From Chlorella sorokiniana (lineage: Eukaryota; Chlorophyta; Trebouxiophyceae; Chlorellales; Chlorellaceae): a DNA stretch of 64,000 bases. The DNA lies in the NCBI GenBank assembly GCA_025917655.1, contig CP084609.1, positions 1 through 64,000 of the forward strand, given 5' to 3'. Of this stretch, positions 3,801 to 55,556 are shown in pieces. Below the pieces are notes generated by a model. It was given only the letters and a program-made list of their open reading frames with translations. It did not search any database and had not been told where the DNA came from. Position 1 is the first letter of the stretch, and the number at the start of each line of letters is the position of its first letter. The translations under genes were made by a program, and so were the position numbers.

Positions 3801-5030
3801 ACCCCCTCCCACCTGGAAGCCCCAGAAAGGCCCAAAAGCGGCAGTGACCCAAGCCACATAGCCGCTGTTCTCGGGGAAGGTGGTGGCGAGCTCTGCAGTT
3901 AGTTACGGGGGACAATAATTTTGTGCGGGCTGAATCAAACGAATGTGAAGCACTTGATGCATTGGTACGTCGCAGAAATGATGTGGAGCAGAGGCGCCCA
4001 GGAGGACAGGGCATGCAGTAACAGCCGCGCCGCCCTTGCGAAGGGACAAATCGGGTTGCGCCAGCATTCGCAGCAGCAGCACTGCAGCCAACACACTAGG
4101 AAAGCACCTGCGGTGACGAGCGCCTCTGGCACCGACCAGATGAGGGGCAGAATGATGAACCCGAGCACTGCCAGCAGTGGAGCGCCCTTGCTGACCGCAT
4201 CCTGCGTCCAGGCGAGGGCGTGCGGAGGCATGGTGGGGGCAGCCTATGCAGGCTGGCATGCGACAGGGAGAGCCATAGGCCGTAGAACCAGCAAATCATG
4301 CGAGCAATGGAGGTTGAGGCAGCAGCGCAGTACGTGGTCGCCTCTACGGAGCTTGACTCGCAGCTGTTACACAGCTGCTGTTCGGCAGCCGCGCATTGAA
4401 CGGTAGCGTGTGACCCTGCCAACAAGACCAGGCTGCACGGCTGCATTCAAGGCATGATGCTGCGCGCACCTCGATCCCAAAGGGCCCTCCAGACACGTCG
4501 TAAAATATGAGGGCGATCAGCGGCAGCAGGGACAGCGGCTTGGCGCGCTCCGCCATGCTCTGCGAGGGACGCATGGGGGAGGGGGGTTGGGGGCTCAGAG
4601 GACAGGGTTCAGACGCCTGCCACACAGCGCTATTGGTGCTTGTTAAAGGGCTTGAGTCAGTGCGACATCACCGGTGACAGCAGGGCAAAGCATGAAGTTG
4701 TTGCAGACCACACAGGTGCGGCTTCTAGTGCACCCACCGGCGATGACTTCGGGCTGCCGCGAGGCGAGCCCGTCCAGCTGCGACCCGCCAACCTCTCGAC
4801 CTCCTCTTCGATCGTTGCAAAGCCAGGCACTTTGGAGCTGCTGCGCCGCGGGCTCTGGCCGTGCGGCAGGCCGTCCCCTGCTGCCGTAGCAAACGGCGCA
4901 GCTGCTTTGGTGCGGGCGACGACCCGGCTAGCGGCGACGCCGCATCGCTGAGCTCAATCTCGCTGCTGGCTGAGACGCTATCAAAAGTGTTGAGCAGGAT
5001 GGGCTCCTCCGCAGAGGTCCTGCGGCTGCA
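817..5030 (-). CDS. PUT/LAT-family amino acid or polyamine permease
   Basis: Multi-pass plasma-membrane or endomembrane carrier of the APC superfamily, closest to plant polyamine uptake transporters (PUT/RMV1). Exons on the minus strand, in coding order: an acidic N-terminal exon (about 4722-5020), then 4470-4559 ([17 protein letters not shown]), 4108-4201, 3813-3892 ([20 protein letters not shown]), 3595-3669, 3113-3160, about 2642-2938, 2475-2556 ([20 protein letters not shown]), 2271-2383, 2059-2127, 1893-1969 ([16 protein letters not shown]), about 1678-1780 ([12 protein letters not shown]), about 1435-1520 ([16 protein letters not shown]), about 1240-1362 and 817-1052. Motif order and spacing match the family. 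The 5' exon is not found and the acidic exon changes frame once near a CCCC run (4875-4878). Several 3' junctions do not close in phase, so the distal part may be eroding or mis-sequenced. The substrate cannot be told from sequence. It is the gene nearest the telomere. Confidence 0.85.
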
Positions 5031-6609
5031 GGTGACAAAGGACAGGCATTGGAATGTGGCTCACAGAGGTCGGCGGCAGGGCGGGCGGCGGGGGCGGCGG
5101 CAAGCCGCGCCAAGGAGCAGGGATGGGGGTGCGGATGGCTTGTCGACCGGGAGGCATGGGTGTGATGCAAACATGCCAATAGAATGTAATGGGCGGTTTT
5201 CGGGACGCTCAGTAGGGCGGAGGAACACCCTGGATGGCACGTCGCTGCACGCTGCTCACTAAAGGTCGCGAAGCAACAATTACTTAAGAAAAATGGTGTA
5301 CGCACCCGGGCGTTATGAATGCGCCAGTGGCACGCAGCGTTTAGCACGCTGTGAGCTTTGGCGGGCAGCAAGGCGCATTAAGCGCAAAAGAAAGGTGCAA
5401 CCACAGAGAAGCAAGTCAAAGTGTGCAGCGACGCAAGACCGACACCCAAGCTATGGACTGGCAACAAGGCGCCGGCGCCGCGACTGGTGGCTGAAGTCAG
5501 AGTGCAAGGACGCAGAACAGAGAACATGGACGTGCATCACCCAACAATATTCGGGAGGCAAACGAATGCATACATGATGCAGCGGCAGGACGGGAACAGC
5601 CGGCAACGGCGGCCACATCCCCAGCAGCGCAAGCAAGAGGCTCACCTATGGTGCAGGCTGGAGCCCGCCATGCTTCAGAAGCCTGGTCGGAGCCAGCTGC
5701 AGAGCTCGCACAGCTGTCTGCAGCCTTCCGGCTGCCGCCACGCCACGTGGAAGTAGCCGCACAGCAGACGGAAAGACGGACGTGTGTCGTTGCGTGATGA
5801 ACAGCCGGGACAGGAGCCCCGACTTTCACGCGTGCCAGCTCTCAACTGACAGTGAGCCTGCGTTGCAAACAGATGACAACATGGCTGGCCTTTATCAACG
5901 CAGGAACACGCTGCAGTCTGAGGAGGGCAGCGGCAAATAGCGGCGCGCTGCCAAGACCGGCAGCAAGACGCGATGCAGCTAGAGAGGGATGTCGATGGCA
6001 TTACGCCAGCCCTGGCGCAACAGCATTCACGCATGCAACGATTGTTTTTTGGGCAGCAGGCAGCAGCGAAGTCAGCCGAAACGCGCAGGACATAAGGCGG
6101 AGCATGCGGATGCGTGCATCGATATAGACTGCAAGTGGGTAACGACAATAGCATTGAGGAAACTCACCTGAAAAGCTCCGGGAGCGAAACGGCAGTAAAA
6201 CGCAGCCCGTTGTGAGCAAAACGCCGGATCGGCTGAATCACAAGGTTGTTAATACGGAGTACAGTGATCAGCGACTGGGCAATCCCCATGCGCTCCCTTG
6301 ATCATTCATGTACAGCATGTATTGAAAACAGCCCCTGCTCCCCGGGTTTACAGCGCACTCTGCCCCGTGAGTCCATCGTGATCGAAGTGCATTCAACATT
6401 CCAAGGCCTGCGAGCGTTAAACATTGTGCAACAACGGAGCAATTGTCTAGTTCGCAGAACCGCGGCCTGATGTCTCGTTGCAGAGCTGCAGCGCCTTTAA
6501 TCAGGCTGCTCGCAAGCTCCGGGATGACGGCGCTCTGCGGTGAGGCCCGAGCCACTGACTGACAGCAACCCGCTGCGGCGGGAGGCGTCAGGCAGGGAGT
6601 TCCGCTGTT
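5031..6609. other. Intergenic, no supported gene
   Basis: Lies between the divergently transcribed permease (-) and TIM21 (+). It should hold both promoters and the missing 5' exon of the permease. Open frames here are short, lack conserved motifs and look like chance frames. Confidence 0.5.
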
Positions 6610-9239
6610 ATGCTGTCCATCGAGCCCGTCCATCGCTTCCCTTCACCTTTTGCGTGTCACGCTTGCTTCCAAGGTGTTACAACATACTTGGGCCCGGCTC
6701 CTAGCTCGAGCTGTTCCCGACCATCCCGTGCTGGCTGCAGAGTCGGGGCTGCCGTCGGGTGCGGCGCAGCAGCAGCAGCAGCCCCTCCTAGCAGCCTTGC
6801 AACGCTGCGCAAGGGAAAGCAGCAGGTTGGCCGGTGCCGGTGCAACACGCAGCACGCTGCATCCGTGGAACCGTCCCACGATACAGCCGCTGTCGACCGC
6901 CGCGGGTGGCGAGCAGCAAGCGGCGCCACGGGCTGGGCGCGCGGCTCGCCGAGCAGCGGCAGCAGCGGAGAAGGAGGTGTGTGCAAAAGTCTTGCCTGCA
7001 TTCTTGGCTGCGCAAGAGTCTTGTGTGCCCTGCTTTAAGGTCACTGCACTTCCAGAGTGGTTGGCCTCAGGCCAGCACCTTGGCACCTCCCAGCTCGGCA
7101 ACCCCACCCCCTGTCCCTGCGCCTCCCGCCCCCTCTGCTCAACTCCCAGGGCTTGGTTGCGGCGGAGGAGGAGTTCTCGGCCATCACCGACAAGATCCCA
7201 CAGCGCCCTGTCACCGCCACCGAGGCCGGCGGCTACTCGCTCGTCATCCTGGCAGCGCTGGGGGTGCGCTGCGCCGCTGCACGGGTCGTATGCTGCGGGC
7301 AGCTGCATGGTCCTTGCTGACGAGCGCTGCGCCGCGGTGCATCTGGGGCTGAGGCGGTGGCCTGCGCATAAGAGGATGTGTGCCATTGCGCTGCGTAAGC
7401 TGCGCGTGGTGGGGGCAGCAGGAAGGACGCTGCACGCAACCATGCGGCTGCCAGCACCGGTCAGCAGCACCGCCGCAATAGACCCATGCGCCGCTCGAGG
7501 CGGGCGGCGGGGCTCGGGCGTGGTGGGCGCCTCAATTTCACATGCAGCACCGTTGGCTTCAGCTACAAATGCGGCCCGCCTTTTATGCGGCACTGAGCGC
7601 CGCAAGCTTTGCCATACCTGCCGCTCCGTTTCCAGCGCTGCAGCTTTTATCGCCCGGCGCTTCCCACAGCAGTCCTTTGCAGCTGGCTGACACCCCCACC
7701 GCCTGGCCCGCCAGCCATCCACCCTCCCCAACTCGCTCTCCGCCGCAGTTTGCGGGCGCCGTTGGCTACGCCGCCTTCTCCGAGCTGCTGCTTTCTCCCA
7801 AGGAATACCAGGTGATTGTGGCGCTCACGTGCAACAGCCAGCTGCTCGCCTGTGCATGCACCAGCTGAACCCGCCTGACGAGCACGGGCCGCCGGCTGCA
7901 CAGCCGCCCCTCGCTGGCTGCCGGCCTGCTGCGCTGCACAGCCTGTTCCCCAGGGCCGCTCTTGTCCTGCTGCACTGCCTTGTCCTTCACGCCGTGCATG
8001 CATGCTGGTGTGCATTTTATTCCCTTGGATTCTGCCCTTACTGCCCCACCGTCCCCGCCGCCTCCCCTGGCAGTGCTACAACCACACCCTGACCCGCATC
8101 AAAGATGACCCAAGGGTGACAGTGCGCCTCGGTGAGCGGCACAGCTTTGCTTGTCTGCGCCATTCAAGCTGTGGTGCCTGGCATACGGCCGAGGCATATG
8201 CTGGGGCTGTCCTGGTGCGGCAGATGTGGGTTGCTGGGCGCAGCTGCGGTCCACCTCCCCTTGCATTCGGGACATCTGCCGGATAACGCTGGCGCGGTCG
8301 GCCGGCCCAGCAGAACCCCATGCACCGTACCCATGTGCAATCAGCTGCCAGCGCAGGCATGTGCGGCTGCTGCATTCGTATGCATGCGCTTGGCACGCCT
8401 CCCCCTGCGCAGGCACCCCCATTTCTGCGTACGGCACAGAGAGCCACAACCGGGCGGCGCGGCAGCGCATCCCACACAGGTGCGGCGTGCTTGTGCAGTA
8501 CGCAGCCGAGACGCCGCTCACTCTGGCTCCCTCATCCAGCTCTCTCTTTCAGGGAGCTGAAGGCGCCCTTGCTGGGTTGGGCGCCCAGCATCCGCACCTT
8601 TCTGTCTTGCTCCATCGCATGCGACCTGGGGTCTGCAATGCTGACCTGGGGTCACCGCCACCCCAAGCCGTGCTTTGGGCAGCCCGCTGAAGCACGCGCC
8701 CTGCCCTCCATGCAAGGCAGGCTGTACAATGATGCCGAGGACGCGAACATGTGCAGCTGCAGTTCCAGCTGCGGGGCCCCTCGGGCCGCGCCACGGTCAA
8801 CGCAGGTGCGCACAGCGCCCGTGGCACGCTGGTGCTGTCCTGCTGCTGTTGCGGGCGGCATTGGCCCTTCTCCTATTGGCTGCGAGCATCCGCCTGGTGC
8901 ATCTTTGACCATCCAGACGTTGGCCTGTCCCTCACAACACCCTGCACCGTTTGTTCCCCTCTTCCCCCTGCGCGTGCTGCAGACATGCACCAGGACGGCG
9001 GGTCCTGGCGGTACAACTTTCTGTACCTCGATGTTGAGGCTCCCATACCGCAGCAGGTGAGCAGCAGAGCGCCGGCAAGGTAGTGGGTGCATGGATGCAG
9101 ATGCACTGCGGGCGTAAGAGAACCAAGCGGGCTGGCGATATGTGTTCATAGGCTCTGCTGCGTCCTCATTGCCACCCTCCCCTTCGGTTCCCGACAGGTG
9201 GTGCTTGTCCGCCCAGGGCAAGCAGACACCGATTACTGA
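6610..9239 (+). CDS. TIM21: TIM21-like mitochondrial inner-membrane import subunit
   Basis: TIM21 links the presequence translocase TIM23 to the outer-membrane TOM complex and to respiratory complexes. Exons read: 6610-6673, 6741-6976 (basic, Arg/Ala/Ser-rich, fits an import presequence), 7150-7263 (EEFSAITDKIPQRPVTATEA then a membrane segment GGYSLVILAALG), 7749-7811 (AVGYAAFSELLLSPKEYQ), 8074-8131 (YNHTLTRIKDDPRVTVRLG), 8413-8479 (ISAYGTESHNRAARQRIP), 8721-8805 (VQLQFQLRGPSGRATVNA), 8983-9056 (WRYNFLYLDVEAPIPQQ) and 9198-9239. The order (one TM helix, then an intermembrane-space domain ending in a VDVE-like strand) is that of the family. Phases join cleanly except inside 8721-8805, where one base is missing near 8744. 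The start exon is an inference from splice phase; a different first ATG is possible. Confidence 0.88.
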
Positions 9240-18043: not shown

Positions 18044-22827
<4,784 letters not shown>

Positions 22828-24516
22828 GCCGCCTGCGCAGCCTGCAGCGGCGGAGTGGGCGCGGGGCGGCGCAGCAAGACTTGGCGCGGCGGCTTGGCAG
22901 AGCGGTAAGTCGCTCTGCAGGGATCCCGCCATACATGGTCGGAGGTCAGCCTGACGGCCAGGAGCTCTGGCAGCGAGAGCCGCTAGCTAAGGAGTCTGCC
23001 GACGACTGCAATGCTCTTTGGGCGGTGACTAAGACGACACATCATACTGTTGCATGAATAAATAAGCGGCAAGGATAGGCGCCGCGAACCGTGCTCACTC
23101 ACCTGCGTGGCGCCGGGTCTGCTGTTCGCTGCTTGTCAGGGTGACCCAAGATGTAGCTCTAAGGTAGGTGCATCAAACAAGCACTGCAGGAGCCAGCATG
23201 CATGCAGCACATGATCCGTCGATGATGCGCTGGCGGCAGCCGCCGCTGGTGGACGCCTGTGGACGCTGTGCTCTTGTTGTTTGCAAGACCTGTTCGTGGC
23301 AGTTTGCCTTTCAAACGCATGTAAGACACATCATTCCAGCATGACCATTCCTCTGCAACGTTGCTGTACTCAGGCATGCTCTGCCTTGAGGCATTTTAAG
23401 CTGGCGCACGGAAGCTGAAGCACTGCCGGCAGAGCATGCCCTGTCTCGGGGCCACAGCATTGCAGTGAAGCAATGGTCCTTTTGCAGTGCAGCACCTCTG
23501 CATGCAGCTCCTGCCTCCTTTGAAAGTGGTCTATCCTGCCCTCTGTCAGTCAGCAGTGTTGCCGCCAGTGGAAGCCTCTCTGCAGCTGCCCTTGAGGGCA
23601 CATTGGTGAAACCGAGTCGGGCCCTGATGGGACACCGCCTGGGTGCTGGGGAGCCAGGAGACAGAAATTGCCCAGAGAAGGCCTCCCCCCCCCCCCCCCC
23701 CTCCCCCGCCCCCTCTTCCCCCTCCCCCGGCCCCTCCCAGCTCTCCCACCCCTCCCACCCCTCCCAATCCCTCCCAACCCCTCCTGCCCCTCCCAGCTCT
23801 CCCACCCCTCCCTACCCCTCCCGCCCCTCCCAGCTCTCCCACCCCTCCCAACCCCTCCCAACCCCTCCCGCCCCTCCCACCCCCACCCCCACCCCTCCCA
23901 ACCATCCCACCTTTAGGGACCGTCTCCACCCATCATTACAGCATGACCGGCAAGCGGGGCGCGTGCTTTGAGGACGCAATCGTGCCAGGTGGACAGCCGG
24001 AGGAGCAGCCACGAGGCAAACCGGAGTACCACTTTGTTACTTGAAGGTCTGGCTCCACAGGTAAGTCGTGCATTCTTTGCTTTAGTCAGTGGCATTATCT
24101 TTTTTACAACAGCGACGAGCATGCCGGCTTGTTAGCAAGTATCCCGACAGCCCCTGGGCGCATTAACAGGCGTCAAGCATCGGCGCGGCGTTTGTTCTGT
24201 TCCCTCGGGCCGTAGACCGTTTCGGATAGCTTGCGGGTGAAGCGGGTGCCACCACCGGAGGTAAGCCAGATGCCATGTCGCCAATAGCGGCCCGCGCTTC
24301 TCTGCAAAGGCCGCCAACAGCCATGCATGGGATGTCTTAAGTCTAATCCGTGCGGCGGCCAACAAAAGCGCAGCGCCCACCCTCCGGGCAGGCGGCTCAG
24401 GCGCCGGTAAGTTTACCTGGCGTTTACGCTGTTGCCCAACAGGCCCGTGAAGTTGTCCATGCGCAGAGTGCCAAAAGCACGAGTGGTCGGCAGTTTTGAC
24501 GGGCTCAGGGCCCACA
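22828..24516. other. Intergenic region with a pyrimidine-rich minisatellite
   Basis: No gene recognised. 23685-23912 is almost pure C/T on the plus strand, built from degenerate CCCCTCCCA-type units of about 9-14 bases. Open frames across it are artefacts of that composition. Several short frames near 24130-24610 have no conserved motif. Confidence 0.6.
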
Positions 24517-28081: not shown

Positions 28082-29773
28082 TCAGCCCGCCGCCGCCGGT
28101 TGCTGTTGCGCTCCCTGCCGTTCACGGTACAGCACGTGCGCATGCCAGATGGATGGCACCGACTGGACCGACGGCGGGTTGACAAACCAGGTCACATCGC
28201 AGCAGGGCGGCACCTGTGGGGGCATGTGGGCGTCAAGGCGTTAGGGTCATCAATGCAGCTTCAAAGCATTTGCGCAGCCAGAGGCAGGTCAGCCGACTTG
28301 GGAGTGGTGGTCGCTGCGACTCTGCCGCATCAACCCAGCAGCAAGCAGCGCTGCTTGCCTTGGCCGCGACATGCGCCTCCACCTCTTCTCTGCTCAGCGG
28401 ACGGTTGGCCCACAAGTTCCAGTGGCGGATGCCGGGCTCCAGATGATACGGGAAGTCCTGGGGGCACCATGCTGGCAATGTCTGAATGCAGCCCTTAGCC
28501 ACCAAAACCGACAACAACAGAAAGCACAGGTCCGAGCCAGGAATGCCGCACCGTCAATGGGCAACCGATACCACAGGGAAGGGGGTCAAACAGCAGGTAG
28601 GAGGCAGCGGCGGGACGAGTGCGGGGCAGCGACCGCGCTCACATTCTCGCGCCACTTAGTGACCAGCATGAAGCCTGGGGGATGGCCCCTGCCGCTGCCG
28701 CTCGGCATGCTGCCGTTCCCGCTGCTGCTGTCGTCGCCGCCTCTTTGGCCGTCGCCGCCTTCCCCGTTCCAAAAGAAGCCCTCGGGCACCACTGCTCTCT
28801 TCCTGCCGTCTGGGCACAGCTCGTGCTGAAAGCCGAATATGTCGAGCTGCAGGTAGTCGGCCACTGGGATGCAGGGTGCGGCAGGCAGGCATGAACATAA
28901 GAGCGATGAAGCAGGATGCGCAGGTTTTGGTGAGCACGCTACTGCCCGCTGGACGAAGTACTGCTGGCAAGCAGCGCACATTCTGCAGGTTGGTGTGCAC
29001 TGTGGGGCGCAAGTACAACCAGCTGCATGTCAGGTAGCTGCAACAACACAACATGCACAACAAGCTGCTACACCCGGCCTTTGCACCACCACCCCAAACC
29101 CCAAACCCCAAACCGACACACGCGCAGGCCGCACCGCACCCGAGGCGTACTGTCGCAGCAGTACGGCATCGCGGTGGTGCCAGTACCGCCTGATGCCCGC
29201 CGGGTGCCGCCCCAGCGTGCCCAGAGCACGCTCCGACCCCTCAGCCACCAATCTCACCAGCTGCTCCCAGGACATTGGCTCCAGGACCACGCCTGAAGCG
29301 GGGCACAGCGATGCAGGGGCTTGGGTGAACCCAACGTTGTGGAAGTGCATATGGTAAGGAAGGGCATGCGGACAGGAAACAGAGCGTGTGCGCTGCAGTA
29401 ACCAAGGATGAGAGAGCTTGGCAGTGCATGGCAGACAAATGGCATGGCAAACCATGTGCAATGCCAGAGGAGCGCAAGCCGCATCGTGCAGCATGCCGCG
29501 GGCAGCACTTGCTGCTTGGACCAGCGTGCATACAGCGGCCTCACCCGGCAAGCCCCGTAGGCTCTCGAATTCAGGTTGTTCTTCATTGTCCATGGCGGCA
29601 AACACAGCTCGCAATCGGCTCAACCCCGCCTGCACCTCGTCCTTGAAGCTGGCAAAGTGCCCCCGCTGCGGCGCCGCAGCAAGCTGTGCCTGGCTTGCGG
29701 CAGCAGGCTGGGGCTGCTCCTGGGCGTCAGGCCCATGGGCAGCGTCGTCATTCGGCATGGGGATGGAATCCAT
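28082..29773 (-). CDS. DUF3605 domain protein
   Basis: Small conserved eukaryotic protein of unknown function. Exon 29545-29773 starts at ATG 29771-29773 (MDSIPMPNDDAAHG) and contains FASFKDEVQAGLSRLRAVFA. Exon about 29140-29293 has LEPMSWEQLVRLVAEGSERA and IRRYWHHRDAVLLRQYAS. Exon about 28600-28872 has YLQLDIFGFQHELCPDGRKR and GFMLVTKWRENVSAV. Next comes PQDFPYHLEPGIRHWNLWAN (about 28420-28465), then VTWFVNPPSVQSVPSIWHAH in the last exon; the stop is at 28082. The FPYHLEPGIRHWNLW and WFVNPP..S.P..WHAHV motifs mark the family. Frame is lost by one base three times in the third exon (about 28612, 28576-28585, 28540). The intron before the last exon uses a GC donor (AAG then GCAAGC, near 28347). 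Confidence 0.78.
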
Positions 29774-36400: not shown

Positions 36401-37767
36401 GCGCCCTCCTTGCACCCGTACCGCAGGCTGTACGTGGATTCGCGCTGCGTGTACTTTGGCAAGCCGCTGCTGGAGAGCGGCACCCTGGGACCCAAGTGCA
36501 ACACGCAGATGGTCATCCCGCGCTTGACAGAAAACTACGGTGCGCCGGGTTTTGCGTTCGGGAGGGCTGCTCGGTTGTGCTCCTCGCAGTTGTGCAGCTC
36601 AAGAGCCAGCCCAGCCATGCTGTGGCTGGGCCTGCGCAAGCCGTCACCACGTTGAACCCTTACCTCTGCCTATTGCGCGGGAACCTCGGCTGCGTGATCA
36701 GCAGTCGGTCAGCGCATATGCTCGACTTGGAACTTTCGACCATGCAGGCGCGTCGCGCGATCCTCCCGAGAAGCAGGCCCCCATGTGCACCCTGCACTCC
36801 TTCCCCCACAACATCCACCACTGCCTCACCTACGCGCGGTGAGGCGTGCAGGGCGGTGCAGGCGGTACAGGGGCACAGCCAGGGTGCAGGGCACGCAACC
36901 CGCCCATCCCTGCTGCCTGCACAGCACCATCCGAGCCGCCTAACCTTGAACGCTCCCGTGCGACTGCAACGATGGCGACTTGGCCGACAAGCTCACTGCA
37001 GCCACCGCACTGTACCCCTTCAGCCGAACATGTACCGTTCATTTACTCTGTGCCGCCTGTCCTGTGCCGTGTGTTTCGCAGGAGCGAGTTTGAGGGCATT
37101 TTGGAGAAGACCCGGCGGAGGCCAACGCTTTTCTGGCCGACCCCGACAAGTACATCTCCAGTGAGTGTGCGGTACCGTTGCAGTACTGGTGTTGTACCGC
37201 TGCAGCATGCTACTGCTGTACTGCACCCAGGTGCAAGTGCTCTGCTGCCTGGGCTGCCTGCTCTGATGCGGCGCTTGAACCAGTTGGTGTGTGATCTGAG
37301 CTCCTTTCACACCTCACCTCCCGAAAGAAAAAACATACATGTAAACACACAAGTTAGTAACTGCATTCTCCATCCCCCACCCCCGCCCCCACCCCCAGGT
37401 GCCAAGGCCAGCAGCGATGCAGCGGCGCGGGAGCAGCTGGAGAAGGTGGTGGAGGTGCTGGTCACGGGTGGGTGGCTGGGGGCGGGGGTGGCTGTGGTGA
37501 TGTGAGGGTGGGCTGCGGCACCTCCCCCGTCTGCGGCTGCCCCCGCGGCTGGGTGACACTCTTTGTGAGTGGCAGCAGTCCTGTTGGCGGGCGCAATGGC
37601 CTGAGCCCCTCGTACCTCCTGCCTGCCGCGCTAACTGTCACAGTGTTATAGTCTTTACCTGCCCTGTCTGCTGTTGTTGTTGCCCCCAGAGCGCTGCACA
37701 TCTTTTGAGGACTGCATCTCGTGGGCCCGCCGCAAGTTCCAGGAACAGTTCCACGACCGCATCGCGC

Positions 37768-37806
<39 letters not shown>

Positions 37807-40800
37807 GGCCCTCGACGGTAGGCAGGCAGGCAGCAGACCGACTGCAGCGTGCAAGTTGTGTGGAGGCTGCCTAGCCGCTGCGCATCATTGTGTGTGGGCC
37901 TGCAGTTGCCCATGTTGCGGGCATCTACTTTCCTCAGCAGTAAATCACACCCGCCTCCGCTTGTACCGCCCGTACCGCAGCTGGTGTTCACCTTCCCGAG
38001 GACGCCAAGACCTCCACCGGCTCCCTCTTCTGGTCGCCGCCCAAGCGGTGGGTTGCGAGTGCGCTTCTGTCTTCTGAAGAAGCATCGGCCCTCCCTCTCT
38101 CCCCCGCCTTCACACCTTCTCAGTCGCCCTGCCCACATTCACCCATACCGCTCACATAGGCACTCATCTTCAAACAACCCAACCCACCAACCCCGCCCGC
38201 AGGTTCCCCACGCCGCTCATCTTTGACGCAGCAGACCCGCCCACGCCGCCTTTGTGCAGGCGGCGGCCATCCTCAAGGCGCAGGTGGGTGCACTGCACTG
38301 AAAGCTGGGGCATTATGGGGGCAGTGATGTTTGTGTGCGCTGCTTTTTGCGGTGGCAGCGCTACATCTGCGGCCACTCTGGCCAACCCAGCTGCCAATGG
38401 CCCGGGCGCACACAAACCTGCACCCCACCCCGTAAGCCACGCATCCCCTTCCGCTGCTTTCCTGGGCGCCAGGTGTACGGCCTGCCGGTGCCAGACTGGG
38501 CGGCAGACGCATCGCGCGTGGTCGCAGTGGCGGCGGGCGTGGCGGTGACGGGCTTTGTGCCAAGAGAGAACGTGAAGATCGAGACGGGTGGGCAGCCAGG
38601 AAGGCGGTGGCGGGTGGGGAGGTTGCGTTTATGTCGGCACGCTGGCACCCACCGCTGGCACCTGGTCACTCCCACCCCACCCTCCACCCCACCCCACCCA
38701 TTCATCTCATGCAGACCCCAAGGCGTCGGCGCCTGCCAGCGACGGCCCCGCGCACGAGGATGCGGTGAGGCCCCGTTGCTGGGACCTTACTTGGCCAGCC
38801 TGACGCCTGCTGCTGCTGTCGCCTGCTGCCAGCAGCTGCTGGGATACTGCTTGATGCTCTTGTCTGGCTGATGCCTGGGCTCGGCGCGTGTGCTGGCAGA
38901 CTGTGCTGCACACGCCGCAGATTCCTGCCTCAGGCTTCTGCCCCAGCCTGCCGTGCTGTCCGGCTTTGCGGGCAGCCACCAGCGCGGCGCTCTCTCCTGC
39001 TGTTCCGCGCGTCTGCACCCAACTGGTATGCTCGCACCCACCAAAGCTGAATAAATCACCCCCTGCCCCCCTCACCCTCAATCAGGTCATCGACGACCTC
39101 ATCGGCAAGCTGCGCGGCGCCCAGCAGGGCCTCCCGGCCGGCACGCAGGTGGGAGTGGCTGCAGCCTGGCACACGCCAGCTCTGATGCGAAAACTGGATT
39201 CCGGGGGCGGCGGACCTGGGACACCCTGCCACTTTGTCGTGCTGCGCTTTATGTTGCCCGCCCTTATTGTCTTTCTTGGTGCTCTGCTGAGACAACCCTC
39301 CCCCGTTTGCACTGCTGCAGCTGTCCGCCATCTCTTTTGAAAAGGATGACGACGCCAACTACCACATGCAGGTGCAGGGCTTGCAGCACGCATGCTGAAC
39401 CCGGCATGCGCTATAATTAGTTGCAAGTGGTGCAGCAGCGATGCAGCTGCCTCACAGCCATGGCCGCAGCTGTATGGTGTGAGCTGCAAGGGGCTCAGCC
39501 CTGTCTTACTTCGCCCGCACAGCCCGCTGCACCTGCTCAGCCTGAACACCTCTGCCTTCCCCGCCTCTGCTGCCCCTGCAGTTCATCGCCGGCTTTGCCA
39601 ACATGCGTGCCCGCAACTACGCCATCCCCGAGGTGGACAAGCTGCAGGTGGGCTGCAGAAGCTAGGGGGCAGTTGGCTGGGTGTGAGCCCTGCCTGCACG
39701 CCAGCATGGGAGTGAGGACAAGCGGTTCTGTGTATGCCGGTATGGTGGAGCCAGCGTCCTCGCTGTTTTTGGTTCTTGGCAGCAGGCCCGTCGCTGCTTG
39801 TGCGCGGTGGGGGCAACTGCGGCAGTCAATGAGGCTGCTGCTTTGCCGGCAACAGCGCTCGCCAGGCTCCCGCTCTGCTCACCACTCACCCCCTCCCCCC
39901 CGCCGGCCTGCCTGCCTGCAGGCCAAGCTGATTGCTGGACGCATCATTCCCGCCATCGCAACCACAACCGCCATGGCCACAGGTGGGTTGCATGGGGCTT
40001 GTGCTGCCCCTGCCTTCATACTTTTGTGCTTTGACATCAACGCAACTTGCCGTGAGGCGTGTGGGGTGCTTGAGGTTGACCGGCAGCCGCTCATGTTTGC
40101 ACGCCCTGCTGCTGGGCCTGAGCGCTTCCTCTGCCATCGTCCGTCACCGTTCAATGTACTATATTCCCCCTCAACCGCTCTCTACTACTTTCGTCCTGCA
40201 GGCCTGGTGTGCCTGGAGCTGTACAAGGTCCTGCAGGTGAGGGGGCGCGCAGAAAAGCGGCAGGCACACAAACTAAAACCGTTGGCAGAAAACTGCGAAA
40301 GGAGAGAGGACAGGCTGCGGTCGGCTGTCGCCTCAGGGCTGCCGCAGCAAAGATGCTCGCTGCCTGCTCAAACTGCGCCTCTGCCGCCGTCGAGCCCCTC
40401 GTTCAATACACGCCAACCTTCCTCACTCACTAAATGGCCCCCACACTTGTGCCGCAGGACAAGCCGGTGGAGGCGTACCGCAACACGTTTGCCAACCTGG
40501 CGCTGCCGCTGTTTGCCATGGCAGAGCCGATCCCGCCAAAGGTGAGGGAGTTCATCGCCAACGCTGCAACATTGCCAACGACTGTGTTAGGCATTCAGCC
40601 GCTCTTCCCCATCCCGCTCCTTTCTGCAACAGACCTTTGAGTTCCAAGACCTGAAGTGGTCGCTGTGGGACCGCTGGGTGCTGGAGGGAGACCTGACGGT
40701 GCAGCAGGTGGGGCAGCAGCTGCCGGGCAGCTTCCTCTTTGCCAGCTCGCGAACGGCTGCGTGCAGCAGCGAAACGCACCAAGCCTTCAGTCTTGTTGCA

Positions 40801-41660
40801 TGATTGCCTTCTGTGTATGTATGATTTTACATAATTGAATAGCTATGCAGACTGTTGCATTTATCGCCCACTTTCCACCGTACCCCTTGTGCTGCAGGTG
40901 CTCGACTGGTTCCGGGCCAAGGGGCTGGAGGCCTACTCCATCTCCTGCGGGCAGTCGCTGCTCTACAACAACATCTTCCCCAAGCACAAGGTGGGTCGGC
41001 CTGGCTGACAAGAAAGATTGAAAACCTGGCTTGCAACAGCGCAGATTTATGGGTAGTGCTGGACAGCTGAAGCCCCACAATGTGAAGCCCCACAATGTAG
41101 TCGGTGTACCGTGGCAGCAGTACACCTGGCAGCTTACCTCTCCAAAGCGGCCGCCAGTTCAATCTTCCTGAGTTTTTAGTTGCCACTGGCTCGACAGCCT
41201 TGCCCACCACGAAATGTGCCGCTGCCGCAGTGCGCCTGGACAAACGCAAAAATTGTGCCGCTTGTGTACTGCAGGAGCGCCTGGACAAACGCATGAGTGA
41301 GCTGGTGGGCAGCGTCGCCAAGATGGAGATCCCAGCCAACAGGTATGTGTGTGCGGTGTGTGTGTAAGCACGCGTGTGGGTGGTGAGGGTGGGGTTGGGG
41401 GGCTGGATCTAGACACACCAATTGTCCTGGAAGGAGCAAGCAGAAAACCACATGTTGGCATTCCGGCCGCAGGAACCACTTTGATGTTGTTGTGGCATGC
41501 GAAGATGAAGAAGGAGGTGCGTTCTGCTGCTGTGTGACATGTGGCGGTCCTGGCACAAGCCTGGATGGGTCTTTGTGCCTCTGCAGCTGTTGTGAATTAG
41601 TTGTTTGGCCTTCTTGCAGAGGACCTGGATGTGCCGCTGGTCAGCATCAAGTTCCGCTGA
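30409..41660 (+). CDS. UBA1: Ubiquitin-activating enzyme E1
   Basis: Activates ubiquitin with ATP and passes it to E2 enzymes; cytosol and nucleus. About 40 small exons give an essentially complete E1: IDEDLHSRQ (30745) and [20 protein letters not shown] (30916), first adenylation half with GLGGLGVEI; then the first catalytic half-domain and the 4-helix bundle; the active adenylation domain with [18 protein letters not shown] (35244) and [20 protein letters not shown] (35515); [12 protein letters not shown] (36205); the catalytic cysteine in [15 protein letters not shown] (TGC at 36786-36788); and [20 protein letters not shown] (39616-39950). The C-terminal ubiquitin-fold domain ends in [13 protein letters not shown] (stop 41658-41660), which would recruit E2. 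The start ATG 30409 is the best in-frame choice. Four exons lack one base at C/G runs (32541-32546, 37111-37113, 37995-37997, 38240-38242). No catalytic residue is lost. Confidence 0.95.
30870..30908. repeat. (CA)n before a UBA1 acceptor
   Basis: CA-rich microsatellite ending about 8 bases before the CAG acceptor of the third exon. A similar CA tract at about 32235-32281 ends about 10 bases before another acceptor. Confidence 0.9.
34525..34595. repeat. Imperfect direct repeat in a UBA1 intron
   Basis: Two copies of a unit of about 30 bases containing AAAACCACCCACCAGGCCGC, each preceded by CCCTCCCT. Intronic, no coding consequence. Confidence 0.75.
37769..37805. repeat. (GT)n directly at a UBA1 donor
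   Basis: The exon ends in CGCAG and the donor GT is itself the first unit of an uninterrupted GT tract of about 18 units. Confidence 0.9.
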
Positions 41661-44411: not shown

Positions 44412-47400
44412 ATGCCAGCGGACGCCGCCAGCGAGCCCGGGCCGCCGCCGCTTGCCGCCGCTCGACCGGAGTCGCCCTCCGCCTCTTCAGTGGCCAGCGG
44501 CAACCTGCCGGCATTGGACTTGGAGTACGATGCCAAGGTACCGCTGGGGCTGGCCGACGCGGCAGTGATCGATAACGGCGCCGCAGCGCAGCACCCAGCT
44601 TTGACCGCTGGACGCAAGCGGTACCTGTGCTACTTCCTCCACCGCCACTTAGAGTTTAGGCTGCCAGAGATTACGTCCCTTGCTGAAGCTCTGCTGGGCG
44701 ATCGGTCAAACGGCGAAAGCAGCATCGGCAGCAGCAGCGACAGCAGCGGCGGCACAGAGGCACTACCAGCAGCGCCGCCCGCCGTCGTTTGGGAGCGCCC
44801 CTTTGGCAACCGGGTGCGCTGCCTGCCGCCAGCTGCGTGTGCCGCCGCCTTTGCTGGTATCTTTCTGCTGCTTGCAGATGCGTGTACACCTCCAAGCGCT
44901 GCTGCCGTCAGCCCCGTTGCGTTCAGCACCTTCAGCACCCTTCTGGGTTGAGCTGGCGTGCAGGCCCTGCTTCCATCCACCCCGTTGCCCCCTGTTCCCT
45001 TGCAGACAGAGTCACCGTTCTGGTACGCACACCTGCCTGGCGGCGACAGCCTGGCAGCTGAGGTGGCGCGACGCAGCATGCTGTGCAAGGTGGGCGACAA
45101 GGGGCTTGCGTTCATGTTGCTTCACTGCAGCACACGTGCTTCTCTGTTTTGTGGCCAGTGGCAGGCTCAGAGGCTGCGTGCTTTGCAGTGTGCGCTGGCG
45201 CCGCTGTTCCCCCTCCGCCCTGACCCCGCACCCAGCCTGGGCTGACCACCTTTATACTTCCCTGAAAATTCATGAAATATCAAGTTGCCCTTCATTGCAG
45301 GCCATGCTTGAGGTGTGGGCCGAGGCGACGACGCTGGAGGGGCTGCGGGTGAGGCCTGATGTTTTCTGCTCTGTTTTTAGTTCCGGCACAAGCCTGCCAG
45401 TGCGGGTGATCCCTTTGGCCGCCGCTGCTGCTTACCAGCTGCATGCATGGCGGGGCAGCGGCGTGACAGGAAGCCACGGCGGGGCGGAAGCAACGCCCAC
45501 CACCCGCTCACTGGCTGCAGGCGGCGATTGCGGCCTACCCAGCAGCGGAGAAGGAGCTGTGGGGGGCCCGAGCAGGTGTGGCGGCAGAGGGCAGCCGTAG
45601 GCACCCTGTGTGCCTGCAAGGGGGCGGTGCTGTGGAGGGGCCGCAGCTTCAACCGCTGCTTCAACACGCGCAGCGGGGGTGGGCCAGCAGCAGGGTCAAA
45701 AGCACTGCAGAGGGCTGGGCCCGGGCGAGGGCAGCAGCGCGCGCATCAAGCGCCGGCGCTGCCTGCCGTCGCCGTGCGGTTGCCCCCCCGCGCCGTCCCT
45801 CAGAAGCCGTGCTGCTACCAGCTGCAAAGAGGACTGCAACGGTATCGCGCCGCCCCTGCTGCAACGGTACCGCGCCGTCCCCGCTTGTACCGCAGTCCTT
45901 CAAGGTTGTGGTGGAGACCTGGGGCACCACCTGGACCATGGCGCAGCAGGTGGGGAGGAAGAAAGGGGGAGGAGAAAGTTAAGGGCAGGAGGAAAGAAGG
46001 AGGGAGGGAGTGCAGTTCAGGCTTCCGCAAGAGTGCGACCGCCAGCCGGGCCGCGGGTGCCGCCAGCTGCACCTCGGGGCGGACAGGGCTGCCGTTGCTT
46101 TGCTCTGCCGCCCCTGCCTGGGCGCAGCACCCCTCTCGGGCCCTCGTGGCAGCCATCACCGCCCTCTAACTCAACCGCGTTTTGTGTTTCAGTTTTTATC
46201 ATTTGCTCTTTCAGTTTGCCTTGATCAATTTCTTCCTCCTTGCAGATCGAGCTGATTGACAGCCTGGAGCACTGCACAGGCTTCAAGGTAGGGCCCGCTG
46301 CCTTCACCTCCGATACGAAATCAGCCTCTTCTAGTATGCCACTGCCATGCGCAGCGGCGCCACCGCCCCTGTTTGTATGCCATCGGCATGAGCGCTGCCC
46401 CGCTGCGTTGCCGCCACGCCACTGCGACCAACCAAAGCCACTGCTTCCCCGTTCAGCTCGCCCGTTTGAATCCCACACCCACGCAATGTCGCCCCGCACC
46501 CAACCCCCTTCTCGCACACATTCACACACCGCCTCCCCCTCCTGCCTGGCAGGGCCCCATCAACCTGCGCAACCCCTCCCAGCGCTTCTGGATCATCGCT
46601 GCGCAGAGCTCGGGCGCGGGCTGCCGCCGCTGCCGCACCGGTGCGCTGCGCTCTGTGGAGGAGGGGGCGGGGCAGGGCGGGGGAGAGGCCCGGGGGAAGG
46701 GCTGTTCGGCGGGTTGGGCGCTTGCCAACGCGGGAAGCCCCAGGCCGCTCACTTGGCGGTACGCCGTGATCTTGTGCCTGCGCAAGCCTCGCAACCGACC
46801 GGTTCTCTTTCCCCCCCCACCCTGCAGCTTCTACTTTGGGCGGCAGGTGGGCGTGGGCGACCGCGCCCCCTGGTTGCTTACGACCTGCGGCGGCGGCGCT
46901 ACCTGGGCCCCACATCCATGGACACCGAGATGGCCTTCCTGATGTGCCACATGGCAAAGGCGAGCGCCGCCGCCGCTGCCGTCCCTCGCTCTGCTGGGCC
47001 CTGGCCGCTGCTAAACTCCCCCGTCCGGGCGCGTCCTCCCCCCTCCTCCTCCCCTGCACTTCCCATCTCGCCACCCGTCCCATTGTGATTGTTGGGTGGG
47101 TGGGGCCCACCCACAACCATTGCCTCACACACACACGCTCATACACAGCCACACACACTCCCCCACACACAAGCGTGCACCCTGCCGCAGGTGCGGCGGC
47201 GCAGCCTGGTGCTTGACCCGTTTGTGGGCACCGGGTCCATCCTGGTGCCCGCCGCCCACCTGGGCGCCCTCACCCTGGGCTGGGACATCGACGTACGCGT
47301 CATCAAGCTGGGTGAGCTCTGCACATGGGCAGCAAGTGGAGTGGTTGGTTCATTTACATGTCTAAGAATGGCGCACACGTCTGTGCTGCTCGCGGGTTGA

Positions 47401-47420
47401 GAGGGGGCGAGGGGTGGGTG

Positions 47421-47476
<56 letters not shown>

Positions 47477-49916
47477 GTGGGTGGGTGGGTGGGTGGGTGG
47501 GTGGGGGTGGGGGTGGGGGTGGGGGGGGACCGTGAGAAGCTGCGGCGCCGCTGGCAGCCATTGTCAATCTGTCTGTCTTCCACTTCTATCTTGACGGAAG
47601 TGGAGCCCTCCTGTGCACACACCGCGGCCGCTGCCCTTGCCCACCCTCACCCCCGCAGGCAAGAAGGACAAGGCGGGGCGGCCGGTCAACGTGTGGACCA
47701 ACTTTGCCGACTACTCGCTGCCGGCCCCGCTGGGCCTGCTGCGCTGCGACCTCCACACGGCGCCGCTCAGGTGGGTGCACTGATGCCGCGCGGACTCGTG
47801 CCGGGCTGGCAGTAGGCTTGGCAAGGTGTGCGATGCACCAGGGGCGCCAGCAGATCCACGCGCGTTGGGTGCACGATACACCGCGGTTGTGTTGTGTGTG
47901 CTTGCGCAATCGAGGAGGCTGGCGCGGCCGCTGCCGTGTCATGGATTGTGGGTGGTGTCTTTGCTGTGAGTACTCACTCAGGCTCAGGCTGGCAGGCGGG
48001 TGGGTGCAGGCCTCAAGAAAGCCTCAAGAAAGCGGAAAACACTGACTTTCCACTCGCCCCCGGAAGCGCAGGCCCGGGCTGGAAGGGGTGCTGGACGCCA
48101 TAGTGTGCGACCCTCCCTACGGGGTGAGCCCCCCTTTTGGGGGTTGAACCACGCATCGGGCTGCCTTTGAGCTTGGGGTGTTGATGATTTGGGCGTTTGT
48201 GTGGGCGGACCGCTGGCAGGGCGGGCAGGAAAACGGGCGAGGAGTCTGGAGGGCACCGCTTGCCTGCTGCTGCTGGGTGGCTGTGTCGCCCCAGCCCAGT
48301 CTTGGGCTGCCTGCCTGGTGGCCGCCATTCAAATACCCCTTCTTTGCCTGCCCCGGCAGGTGCGGGCGGGCGGGCGCAAGAGCGTGCCCAAGGAGCGTGA
48401 GATCCGCAACCGCGACAGCTACGTGCCCTCCACCGACCCCTACACGGTGGCAGGTGGGTGCGCACCTGCATGCAGGGCGGCGGGGGTGGGGAGGGGCTGC
48501 CGAAGGCGCTGCGCACTTGATGAGGAAGTGTACCTGCAGCCTCTCCTGCCACCCAGCGCCTGTGCCAGCGGGGCCACCGGTATCAGCTGCGGCTGCGTTG
48601 GGCTTGGGCCTATGCCGTGAAACAAGGCGGCTGTGGCCAAGCGGCGTGTCGCAAGGAAACTGCGACTTGTGTGCTGCTGTGCCCCTCACCTCTGCACTCC
48701 TAAAGGCCTGACTAACCTGCAGCAGGCCCTTGCCTGCTGGCTCCGCGCCCACCCAAGCACAATTCCACACACCGCTGGTTTTCACACCGCCTCCTCCCAC
48801 CCCCCAAACCGCCCGCAGAGTGCCTGCACGACCTGCTGGAAGCTGCCGCGCGCCTGCTGGCACGCGGCGGCCGCCTCGCCTACTTCCTGCCGGCTGCCCC
48901 GGGGTACTACTTTGAGGAGGAACTGCCGCGGCACCCGGCGCTGGAGGTGGGCGGGCATGAGGGTGGTTGGCAGCAGGGTTTTGTGTGGATCAGCCCAGCC
49001 GTCAGGGCGTCGCCAAGCACGCAGCAGCCCCAGCCTTCCTTGCCGCTGTGGGTCATGGGAAGGGGCAGCTGCGGGGCCATGCAGCTGAGCCGCATAGCAG
49101 CCGCGTAGCTGCACCGGGCCCGTGCCCCCACTGCTCTGCTGCCTCTGAGCCTGGTGGTCAAAAGAGCGGCTGCAGCGTCCTGCTGCGAGTGGCTGCCGCC
49201 TTCCCCGCCGCCGCTGCCGCAGATTGTGGCCAACTGCGAGCAGCTTCTGACCACGCGGTACAGCCGGCGCCTGATAGTGATGGAGGTGCGCGATGCTGCA
49301 GTACACGCCCCAACACTGCAGACGCAGTTTGCAGGCCAGCCTGCCGAGCGCCACCTGGGTGCTGCCTGTAGTTGGCTTCCCCTTGTATGCGCTGCGGCCG
49401 GGCTGTTCTGCAGTGATGGGCTGGGGCGGACAGTGCAGGGCTGCTGCCAGCCCCGCTGCCAGCGTGGACACTCAGTGTGCAGGCTGTGCACGGCCAGCCC
49501 GCACCTGCAGCCGCCAGCTGGCCACACATCACCCTCCGAGCACCTCAGCACAGCCCCCAGTAATTCCATCGTCCCCCTCCCCACTGTTTTGTGCAGAAAG
49601 TGCGACGGTACGACGCGGCGGCGGCAGCGGCGTACTTCGATCAGCGCGGCCCGCCCAGGCATGCCCAGCCTGCCGCTTTTTGCTAAAAAACTCACAATTT
49701 CCTCTTCGCTTAGTTGTCGCCAGCCACTTGTGTCCCTGCTGATAGCATGTACCGCTTCCTCTTCGCCACCCGTACCGCAGGATGTCGGTGGACGACATGC
49801 ACGAGTACGTGTACAAGACCCCCGCCCAGCTGGCGGCCGAGGCCGGGCTGTCGCTGGAAGAGCACCGCGCGGCGCAGGCCGCCCGCCTGCCGCGTCACCG
49901 CGGCAAGAACATCTGA
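44412..49916 (+). CDS. TRM11: TRM11-like tRNA (guanine-10-N2) methyltransferase
   Basis: With TRM112, makes m2G10 in tRNA in the cytosol. The start ATG at 44412 gives MPADAASEPGPPP, then the family N-terminus RKRYLCYFLHRHLEFRLPEI. Later exons: PFWYAHLPGGDSLAAEVARR (45012), SFKVVVETWGTTWTMAQQ (45899), IELIDSLEHCTGFK (46246), LRNPSQRFWIIAA (about 46565), RRYLGPTSMDTEMAFLM (46895), SLVLDPFVGTGSILVPAAHL (47205, SAM-binding loop), WTNFADYSLPAPLGLLRCDL (47696), LDAIVCDPPYG (48092, catalytic DPPY motif), VPKEREIRNRDSYVPSTDPY (48388), LLARGGRLAYFLPAAPGYYF (48855) and YVYKTPAQLAAEAGLSLEEH (49808). The stop is at 49914-49916. One C is missing in the run 46866-46870. Gene model in roughly 16 exons; the N-terminal part between 44840 and 45900 is the least certain. 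Confidence 0.92.
47120..47175. repeat. CA-rich tract before a TRM11 acceptor
   Basis: CACACA and CACTCC units in the intron just upstream of the acceptor at 47190, coding-strand orientation. Confidence 0.8.
47424..47525. repeat. (GT)n(GGGT)n tract in a TRM11 intron
   Basis: About 22 GT units, then GGGT and GGGGGT units. It lies in the donor-proximal half of the intron between the exons ending near 47311 and starting at 47660. Confidence 0.95.
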
Positions 49917-50312: not shown

Positions 50313-51917
50313 ATGTCGATCCAAGACCTGCCCGATGACTTGATCTTGATGATATTGCGAGACTCAGAGCCAGAGCAATGGTGAGCTGCACAAGCGCTGC
50401 CTTGAAGTTCGAGCGCGGCTGTCCTATCGCTCTGATATCAACGATGCTCGTGATGTGGAACGTTAAGGGCATTGAGTGCCTCTCTGGCGGCCGTTTTGTT
50501 GATGCCACCCTGGCGCCGGGTGCCGCCTGCCTGAACGCATGCAGGGCGGCTTTGCCGCTTGTTTGTCGTCGTTGGTGGCGCCTGGTGCAGCGCACATCTG
50601 AATTGGGGGTTATGACTGCCACAATCGAGGCAGACCGAAGTTTACAGCACTTGCCGTGGGACTCCTGGGCGGCTGCTCCGCTGGCAAGCCTGAGGATGCA
50701 CAGAAAGCGGTACACGGCGGCCAGCCTTGAAAGCGGTACACGGCGGCCAGCCTTGACCTGGGCTGCATTCCGCAATGGCAGCACAGTCGAAGCTGCGACT
50801 TCATCGAAGATGTGCTGCATCTGCTGTCGCCCCCAACAGCATCCCTCACGCGGCTGGTACTAAAACGGGGCAGACTCTCTGCGGCAGTTTGCTCCCAGCT
50901 GGCCGCTTTCACCCCGCTGCGCCATCTCGAACTGACTGCTCTTGGCGGGGGTTGGATGCAGATGTTGTCGGAACGCTCAGCCGCCTGACCAGCTTGAGCC
51001 TCAGCGGCGTGGAGCCGGGCCCTTCTCCGCTAGCGCTAACCCGCCTGACATGCATCTGTCACCTGACTTTGCAAGGTAATGACGGAGCTACGTTCCCGGC
51101 GCCAGCGGCCTTTCCGCTTCTGCATTCATACACCTATTCAAGCTCCCCTGCATTCCAGGTGGGTGGCTGTCCTGAGTGCAGCTGAAAGGGAGATGGCAGC
51201 CGTGGCCAGCAACGCATATATGCAGGCCACAACTGCGACCGCTGACGGCCGGCACGACATGGGCATGCAGGTTGGCAATGACGGGCTTTTCGGTGCCTCC
51301 TATGCCGACTTTCAATCGAGGTTTTATTTGCATTACACCCGGATGTCCATCTGGAGGCTTAAAGGCCCACGCGACCTGGCGGCGGCCCTCTCTGCACTGA
51401 TGCCCCCGGCTGCGCCCAAGCTAGCATCCCTTTACTTGCAGTCCCCGACTTTGATGCAACATGCGGGCCCTGGCCGCCTCTCGCGGGACTCACACGCTTG
51501 GATGTGGCATCGGAAGCCCTGCCAAGCCCAGGGTCACCTTTGATTCGCAGCCTGGCTCCACAGCTGCGGTCGTTGACTGACTTGGAGCTCAGCCTCAAGG
51601 GCGCTCACGCCTGTCAAGCACTTGCCGCAGCAGCGGAGGTGTGGGCCGCACAACCGCAGCAAGCACACAACGAGCCAGCCGGCGTGGCATCGCAGCCTGG
51701 AAGGGAGGATGTACGGCGGGCACGACTTGCAGTGGCCGAGCCCGCTGTTGCGCTGGAGCCGCCCTCACAGACCCCAGCTGCTGCAGCGACGGTGCCAGGC
51801 AATCCTCATAGCGCTAGCACGCAAACTGAGCCAGGCAAGGCATCAGCGGATGCAGCTGCATGCAGGCTCATCAGGGCAGTCTTCGGCCTTTCCTCTCTCC
51901 AACACAGCACGTCGTAA
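50313..51917 (+). CDS. F-box / leucine-rich protein
   Basis: Likely an SCF ubiquitin-ligase adaptor. Exon 50313-50380 encodes the first F-box half (MSIQDLPDDLILMILRDSEP). Exon 2 from 50545 gives the second half (AALPLVCRRWWRLVQRTSEL) in phase. Leucine-rich strands follow: VLHLLSPPTASLTRLVLKRG, FTPLRHLELTALGGG, LSRLTSLSLSGVEPGPSPLA, LTRLTCICHLTLQG. A final exon carries LTRLDVASEALPSPGSPLI and LRSLTDLELSLKG, then an Ala/Pro/Gln-rich tail ending at 51917. A 26-base tandem duplication (50705-50756) throws the frame out in exon 2, and one G is missing at 50947-50951, so as written the product would stop early at about 50863. Such F-box/LRR genes are numerous and variable in Chlorella-type algae. 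Confidence 0.65.
50705..50756. repeat. 26-base perfect tandem duplication in the F-box gene
   Basis: AAGCGGTACACGGCGGCCAG plus CCTTGA, twice head to tail (50705-50730 and 50731-50756). The unit is not a multiple of three. With one copy the frame runs straight into the leucine-rich part; with two it reaches a stop. Confidence 0.97.
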
Positions 51918-51921
51918 CTCA

Positions 51922-51926
51922 TGTAA
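51922..51926 (+). terminator. TGTAA poly(A) signal candidate of the F-box gene
   Basis: TGTAA only a few bases after the stop at 51917; a usable signal if the 3' UTR is very short, otherwise coincidental. Confidence 0.35.
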
Positions 51927-53437: not shown

Positions 53438-53689
53438 TGCTGTAATGTGGCCCTGATGCTGTGTGAGTGCGCTCACAGTGGGCAAAGCGCCGGCGCCCAG
53501 GGAGGCAGCTTGGTGCAGCAGTGAGCACTGGCCTAGATGGATGCTCAGTAGCTTCCTCCATCCACCCATGCTTGGCTGTCTCCCACCGATACCGATGCCC
53601 TCTCCTGCTGCCTCAGCCTGCTGCTGGCCGCTGGCTGCATGACGCGTGCTGCTGCCGCCGCTGCCAGCGTCACGCAGCCGCTCACACCC

Positions 53690-55556
53690 CCTGATGCCCG
53701 TCATGTCCTCCATGCCGCCCTCCATGCGCTCGGCGGCGGACCCCGTCTCCGCGGTACGCCTGCGGTACGGTGGGGGCAGAGGCAGCACTGCTTAGGGATG
53801 CCATGCAGCAACAAAAGGTAGTGCAGCAAAGTGCAGGGCAGGGGCGGGGCGGGGCTCTGTGGCCACAGAGTGCCAAAGGACGCGACAGCGCACAGCGGCG
53901 CTTGGAAGCATCCCAGCACGCAACTGCCATCTGCGATCCAACAATCGTTCCGCCCCAGGCACGCCTCCTGACCACCGACATGAGCAACTAAACGCTGCTG
54001 CCGCCGCACTCACACGCGCACGATGTCGGCCACCGGGTGCACAAAGATCTTGCCGTCGCCAATCTCCCGGTGTGCGCCGCCGCCGCCACGATGCGCACCA
54101 CAGAGTCCACCTGGCCCCTGCATGGGCGTGGGGGTGCCGTGGAAAGCTGGGGAGGTGTGTGAAACGGAGCCATTCAGGGTGTGGTGGCTTGGAGGGTAGA
54201 GGTGGGTGAGCGGGTCCAACCCACTTTTGCCCCCCCCCCCCCCCCGCCCCGCGCATCATCCGTCTAGCAGCAACGAGGCGATGCAAGGAAGTTGGTGCAT
54301 CGTTGCCAGCCCCAGGTATTGCCAGCCCCCGCCCTAATCTGTCTTTTCAAACAAGAGGCCGATGCAGGAAATCTAGTGCTATCTTCAACCCACCGCGCCA
54401 CCACGATGTCGATGCGCGACTTGTCCACCAGCACCGCGCCCGCGCCCGCGCCATACTCGGTGCCGCCGTACCGCTCCTTCTGGCCTGCGGTACATGACGG
54501 GTCAAAGAGTGGGAATGTTTGCGTCAGCGGGCGTGTGCGGTCTGGGGGCTTGGGGGTGGGCATGCGTCGGAGTGCATTAAAGACTGGATCGATGCTGCAG
54601 TGCTGCCTCTGGCAGGCCGCAGCAAAGGATCCTTGCACGGGGTGCACAGCGCCACGAACAGCATTGGGCTGCAGACGAGCTCGTGAGGGGGCAGCACAAG
54701 GACAGCAGCGCAGCTGGCGGCTGGCGGCAGCAGCGGGTGCCTGCAGGCCCTCCCCTCCCGGCCCCTCTGTCAGCGCTCTTCCCTGCCCATCCACGGCTGG
54801 CTGCTCACCGCCCTGCATGCCGGCGCCCCTGGCCTCGGTGACGGTCATGCCGCGGATGCCGCTGGCGTTGAGCTGGGCCACCACCTTTGCAGGCGCCAGG
54901 GGCGAATGAGGGCCTGATGGGCACAAGAGCATTGAATGGGGGGCGGGGTTTGTGTTGGCCCAACGAGGCAGAAAGGGCCAGCAAAGCGGCCTCCAGCAGC
55001 CACTAGAGGGAGCAACACACACACCCAGCGTGGTGGTAGACAAGGAAACCTAGCTATGTAAAACCAAAGATCAGAAAGAGAAGATTGTTCTGTGGGGCGG
55101 CGCCGCACCTCCACCCGGAAGAAGTTGCAGCCCGGGAAGGCCGACAGGTCAACCGTGATGGACTCCAGGGCCTTGTAGGGGCCAGCCGGTTGGTTGCCGT
55201 TGCCCTCTGCAGCGCGGGAGGCAGGGAGGGCAGAAGAGCGCGGTCTAAGGGCCTGCCACTGGCGGCAGCGGCAGCGGCAGCGGCGGCACTGCCCTGACGC
55301 TGCACTCTGTGCAGCCCCCGGCGCACCTGCGTTGCAAACGTGCAGCGCAAGTCGTCTTTCGCTACAGCGGGGTGCCGGGCAGGCCCGGGGGCCGCTCCTA
55401 GGGCTTGGGCCCGCCTGCGATAGCGGACATGTGCGGGAGGTGAGCTCCCAGGGTGGTCATCAGCTTGAGATAGCGTTTGTGCACTAACCGATGCCCGCCG
55501 CGCTGCACGCTGCAAGCCGCTCCTGCCACCAAGCTGCTGCCAACTGCACAGGCCAT
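53690..55556 (-). CDS. GLNB: Plastid PII nitrogen/carbon sensor
   Basis: Trimeric chloroplast protein that senses ATP/ADP, 2-oxoglutarate and, in plants and green algae, glutamine, and activates N-acetylglutamate kinase. Exon 55489-55556 starts MACAVGSSLVAGAACSVQ, a good transit peptide. It joins in phase to exon 2 (about 55334-55370, ending LHVCNA) and exon 3 (GNGNQPAGPYKALESITVDL, then FPGCNFFRVE). Later exons: ALIRPWRLQ with VVAQLNASGIRGMTVTEARG; the T-loop ERYGGTEYGAGAGAVLVDKS; QVDSVVRIVAAAAHTG; and GDGKIFVHPVADIVR ending at a strong GTGAGT donor (54012). A further exon from 53746 gives TGSAAERMEGGMEDM, a plant-type C-terminal Q-loop. One A is missing at 54886-54888 and one G at 54066-54068. 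The 3' end is unresolved: the frame stays open to 53429 unless a G is missing near 53690. Confidence 0.88.
54232..54250. repeat. Poly-C tract in a PII intron
   Basis: A run of C with one G, length probably unreliable in the assembly. Confidence 0.8.

Follow-up and report, generated by a model that had tools for sequence, protein, structure and literature searches.

Do conserved genes at one end of a Chlorella sorokiniana chromosome really change reading frame, or were they broken in the genome assembly? The question is raised by the opening 64,000 bases of contig C8 (C8:1-64000; CP084609.1 of assembly GCA_025917655.1, 38.8 Mb in 15 contigs), hereafter called the window, where an original prediction made from the letters alone had described about 15 one-base frame losses in conserved genes, nearly all in C/G runs. 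Alignment to relatives with intact genes confirmed ten of the 18 sites listed, all in exons (UBA1 4/4, NOP9 3/5, TRM11 1/1, PII 2/2), and the others were weakly supported or failed. Three unlisted losses were also found (two in NOP9, one in TRM11), so that robust frame losses in these four genes number 13 in 2,278 codons. We regard it as nearly certain that these frame losses of one base are base-level errors left in the assembly, and that the genes themselves are intact in the living alga. This explanation is favoured over gene death because all 13 robust losses are net -1, 12 of the 13 lie at C/G runs, UBA1, NOP9 and TRM11 are single-copy in the assembly, losses also occur on other contigs, and a transcript-like UBA1 protein is unbroken.

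Detection of frame losses

Frame changes were located with a custom spliced protein-to-DNA aligner that allows codon matches, gaps and GT-AG introns (three phases, at least 30 bases), and in which a frameshift step takes one, two, four or five bases for a single residue. Losses in the window were counted over UBA1, NOP9, TRM11 and PII, each gene being aligned to a single reference under the working penalty; TRM11 entered the rate count only up to position 49000, and taking the full gene added 0 events. Codon-usage phase (45-base flanks) was used as a weak second opinion only. The expected shift was seen in 8 of the 12 robust events examined (12 of the 13) and failed at NOP9 19882, UBA1 37996, TRM11 46610 and PII 54887.

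An aligner artefact as the source of the frame losses was ruled out by simulated genes. Spurious frame calls numbered 0 in 110,381 codons of 108 UBA1-like intron-bearing genes, and 10 in 37,499 codons of 60 intron-bearing genes of NOP9/TRM11 type, so that the 13 calls in 2,278 window codons exceed chance. When 92 losses and 88 gains were planted, the aligner returned 61 calls of -1, 65 of +1, four of +2 and two of -2 (not matched by position to the planted events), that is 132 calls for 180 events, about a quarter to a third being missed. The 61 calls of -1 against 65 of +1 indicate that the aligner does not lean to losses.

UBA1 and a transcript-like protein

UBA1 (ubiquitin-activating enzyme E1; 30706..41657, plus strand) is a single-copy gene whose closest named proteins are from Micractinium and Chlorella (83-85% identity). 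It contains four net -1 losses, each called with 3/3 references: three at C runs (32540..32546, 37110..37113 and 37995..37999) and one at adjoining C runs (38237..38242).

The original prediction had proposed a comparison with transcripts, and for UBA1 alone a protein comes close to providing one. The JGI protein P0001 (893 amino acids) is identical to the window UBA1 at 873/873 aligned codons, gap-free, and its frame is continuous across 4/4 loss sites. P0001 lies on a contig of 3,492 bases, whereas the same codons in the window span 9.7 kb with 34 introns, and it must therefore derive from spliced RNA.

An unbroken transcript-like UBA1 where the assembly is broken is also what would be expected if the bases were absent from the nuclear DNA and were restored in RNA by insertional editing, or if ribosomes made up for them by slipping at C/G runs; such an origin of the losses is hardly credible. 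At these codons the relatives' gene models keep their frame, no motif is evident beyond the C/G run, and most such runs are untouched. Insertional RNA editing in Physarum mitochondria is alike in that a transcript would hold bases, often C, missing from the DNA, but that system belongs to slime-mould mitochondria, whereas nuclear genes of a green alga are concerned here, with a same-protein transcript for one gene only. To our knowledge, editing of this kind has not been described for nuclear genes of green algae. Programmed ribosomal frameshifting offers a similar picture, a single gene whose two reading frames meet at a short run, but here each gene has many sites and they share no signal other than the run. 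Conservation of the frame change in orthologues was not seen among the relatives aligned, as three for UBA1, five for NOP9 and four for TRM11 align in one frame across the sites. That the alga inserts bases in RNA at C/G runs, or that its ribosomes slip back by one base, with essential genes such as UBA1 encoded in several frames, has next to no probability in our estimate.

NOP9, TRM11 and PII

NOP9 (pumilio-23; 18047..22836, minus strand), also single-copy, has five robust frame losses and an uncertain tail. The loss at the C/G run 19534..19546 and a net -1 loss of uncertain exact place (22078..22101; listed at about 22078, placed at 22092-22101) were called with 5/5 references. The loss at a C run of the coding strand (21083..21090) was called as -1 with 4/5 references and as a frame-equivalent +2 with 1/5. 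Of the two unlisted losses, one is of uncertain place (21685..21712; -1 with 3/5 references and frame-equivalent +2 with 2/5) and the other is at 19882, in a G run of the coding strand (19878..19886; 3/5 references at the working penalty and a fourth at a lowered penalty). Frame changes in the tail (18376..18448) were judged from the lowered penalty and codon usage. At 18376 a weak -1 was called at the lowered penalty only, with 3/5 references, and codon usage shifts by -1. At 18433 a single lost base had been claimed, but the frame moves by net +1 or -2 according to alignment and codon usage, and two close-by losses were called with 3/5 references at the lowered penalty. One NOP9 intron (20888-20970) carries a long (GT)n tract adjoining a run of about 18 G; long G runs therefore do occur in the assembly.

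TRM11 (tRNA guanine-10-N2 methyltransferase; 44412..49913, plus strand), again single-copy, has two net -1 losses called with 4/4 references, the listed one at a C run (46865..46870) and an unlisted one near 46610 (46598..46613). With one reference (P0164), the lowered penalty gave three extra calls in the variable N-terminal part, which were left uncounted. A PDB search with TRM11 returned a single weak distant match. In PII (GlnB-type; 53702..55168, minus strand), two net -1 losses were called with one reference, at a G run (54065..54068) and an A run (54886..54888) of the coding strand. Confirmed net one-base losses are thus present in UBA1, NOP9 and TRM11, the essential genes that had been said to be hit.

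Several breaks per gene would suit true pseudogenes, or a set of copies decaying near the telomere while an intact set exists elsewhere. A duplicate of the region that could supply intact genes was looked for with UBA1, NOP9 and TRM11 (the search did not take in PII) and none was found; for UBA1 the 26 matches in the assembly comprised 24 in the window and two isolated exon-sized ones elsewhere (44% and 56% identity). Protein sequence is conserved on either side of every break, UBA1 corresponds to an unbroken transcript-like protein, and decay predicts gains beside losses. Gene death is in our view a very improbable cause.

Two observations concern the arrangement of these genes. UBA1 and TRM11 are adjacent in the window, and since their locus numbers in Chlorella vulgaris, Nannochloris and Prototheca are almost consecutive, the gene order looks conserved. 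PII and NOP9, both on the minus strand and about 31 kb apart in the window, are fused in one protein in P0126, a gene model of another alga.

Introns and the remaining sites

Introns mistaken for frame losses account for part of the original list. The three DUF3605 sites (28540, 28576 and 28612) all lie in one ordinary GT-AG intron of 185 bases (28458..28642, minus strand; GTGAGC...CCCAG). Joining the flanks across this intron gave a Pfam DUF3605 match of 25.3 bits (cut-off 23.6), the downstream exon alone scored 20.8 bits, and read-through gave no Pfam match; these sites are therefore intron and not frame losses. The same explanation is possible for the TIM21 site (8744..8744, plus strand), where an AG could be an intron end. 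In support of a loss there, a Pfam TIM21 match lies directly downstream and codon usage shifts by -1, and the site counts as weakly supported; a PDB search with TIM21 gave no match. At the 13 robust sites, however, the frames abut, and the aligner, free to place introns of at least 30 bases, placed none there; the 132 introns that it used across window and control genes range upward from 91 bases. It is extremely unlikely that introns explain these 13 losses.

The F-box/leucine-rich repeat site (50947..50951, plus strand) is also weak: the leucine-rich repeat spacing, judged by eye, runs on across it and codon usage shifts by -1, but the Pfam score of the joined peptide is below cut-off. The frame loss proposed in a permease at 4875 found no support, the best codon-usage frame being unchanged on the permease strand; the permease domain matches lie elsewhere in the gene, away from this position. 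The statement that each site fits one deleted base accordingly holds for the ten confirmed sites, all net -1, and fails for the three DUF3605 sites and NOP9 18433, with three sites (NOP9 18376, F-box and TIM21) weak and permease 4875 unsupported.

Sequence context, direction and rate

The expectation that losses would fall mainly at C/G runs was borne out: a C/G run of at least three within an 8-base window was present at 12/13 window sites, the other (PII 54886) being at an A run. Over all genes counted, such runs were found at 16/20 sites, compared with 27.0% of 5,944 background codon windows (P 1.2e-6), and runs of at least four at 7/20 sites, compared with 7.6% (P 4.8e-4). Part of the C/G dominance is due to composition, because the window exons are 67.8% GC (GC of the whole window in 4 kb steps is 53-67%).

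Control genes (HSP70 paralogues, BiP, CCT subunits and PRP8) were taken from contigs C1, C2, C3, C4, C5, C6 and C10. Twenty gene loci were fetched, of which nine (L050, L051, L054, L056, L061, L062, L063, L065 and L066) entered the rate count together with the separately fetched L070. Too great a divergence (38-44% identity) led to the removal of L064, L067, L068 and the first half of L062, with 0, 2, 4 and 2 calls, respectively; seven of these calls are net losses (one or two bases each) and the eighth is a gain. L052, L053, L055, L057, L058, L059, L060 and L069 stayed outside the alignment for want of a reference. The divergent HSP70-like L068 (C3:1270454-1272595), aligned over 327 codons at 44% identity, gave four frame calls that differ in type; it may be a pseudogene or a poorly called gene, or the calls may be noise in the alignment.

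Seven calls were made in 4,058 control codons, of which about one would be spurious at the simulated NOP9/TRM11-like rate. The losses in PRP8 and HSP70A, both on C2, are clear against PDB chains 8xi2_A and 7n6g_6K, and an HSP70 paralogue on C10 has a call as well; those in CCT1 and L065 are weak (score gains 9 and 6) and the +1 in L063 is doubtful. The direction of the indels, which the original prediction had proposed to compare genome-wide, carries beyond the window: 5/7 control calls are net -1, one is net -2 and one net +1, which gives 18/20, one and one over all genes counted.

Assembly error as the best explanation

The losses would have arisen if some C/G homopolymers of this GC-rich algal genome came out one base short in the consensus and polishing did not restore them, each short run then shifting the frame of an exon although the gene is whole in the living alga. 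The sequenced DNA would accordingly carry the longer runs. The draft was probably made from long reads, as the error type matches published long-read profiles. In the profiles given in PMC8812927 and PMC12007338, long-read errors are mostly indels, mostly in homopolymers, and deletions are commonest after four to five equal bases. The present losses resemble the homopolymer deletion errors described there in being frame-breaking single-base losses at homopolymers genome-wide, in the excess of deletions over insertions and in the runs of about four to five bases.

Four points weigh against this explanation. The frame-loss rate is about three times higher in the window than in the control genes (1.90 against 0.57 per kb, P 0.008), the window having been chosen for standing out; lower read depth near the contig end is a possible cause. 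Intact C/G runs of at least four number 67 in 7,112 bases of window exon, so that under-calling is partial. C/G runs dominate here, in GC-rich exons, whereas in the bacterial example of PMC12007338 A/T runs err more than G/C runs. Lastly, contig C8 opens with a plant-type telomere, which makes the window a chromosome end, and no short C or A run was found in telomere bases 1-275. This telomere (1..275, without strand) consists of perfect CCCTAAA units; the earliest non-canonical unit is at 276, and 41/48 units are canonical in 1-354. Within the window, no Rfam match was obtained at gathering scores.

The claim that systematic homopolymer under-calling in a long-read assembly explains the losses better than gene death thus stands as regards assembly error, with under-calling that is partial and "long-read" that rests on the error type.

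Significance

As assembly artefacts, the frame losses are biologically ordinary and of low biological interest. Their weight is practical, for annotators of this genome: the four window genes tested have one frame loss per about 525 exon bases, some being missed by the aligner, and gene models, gene-loss calls and frame-dependent searches made on this assembly are unreliable until it is re-polished.

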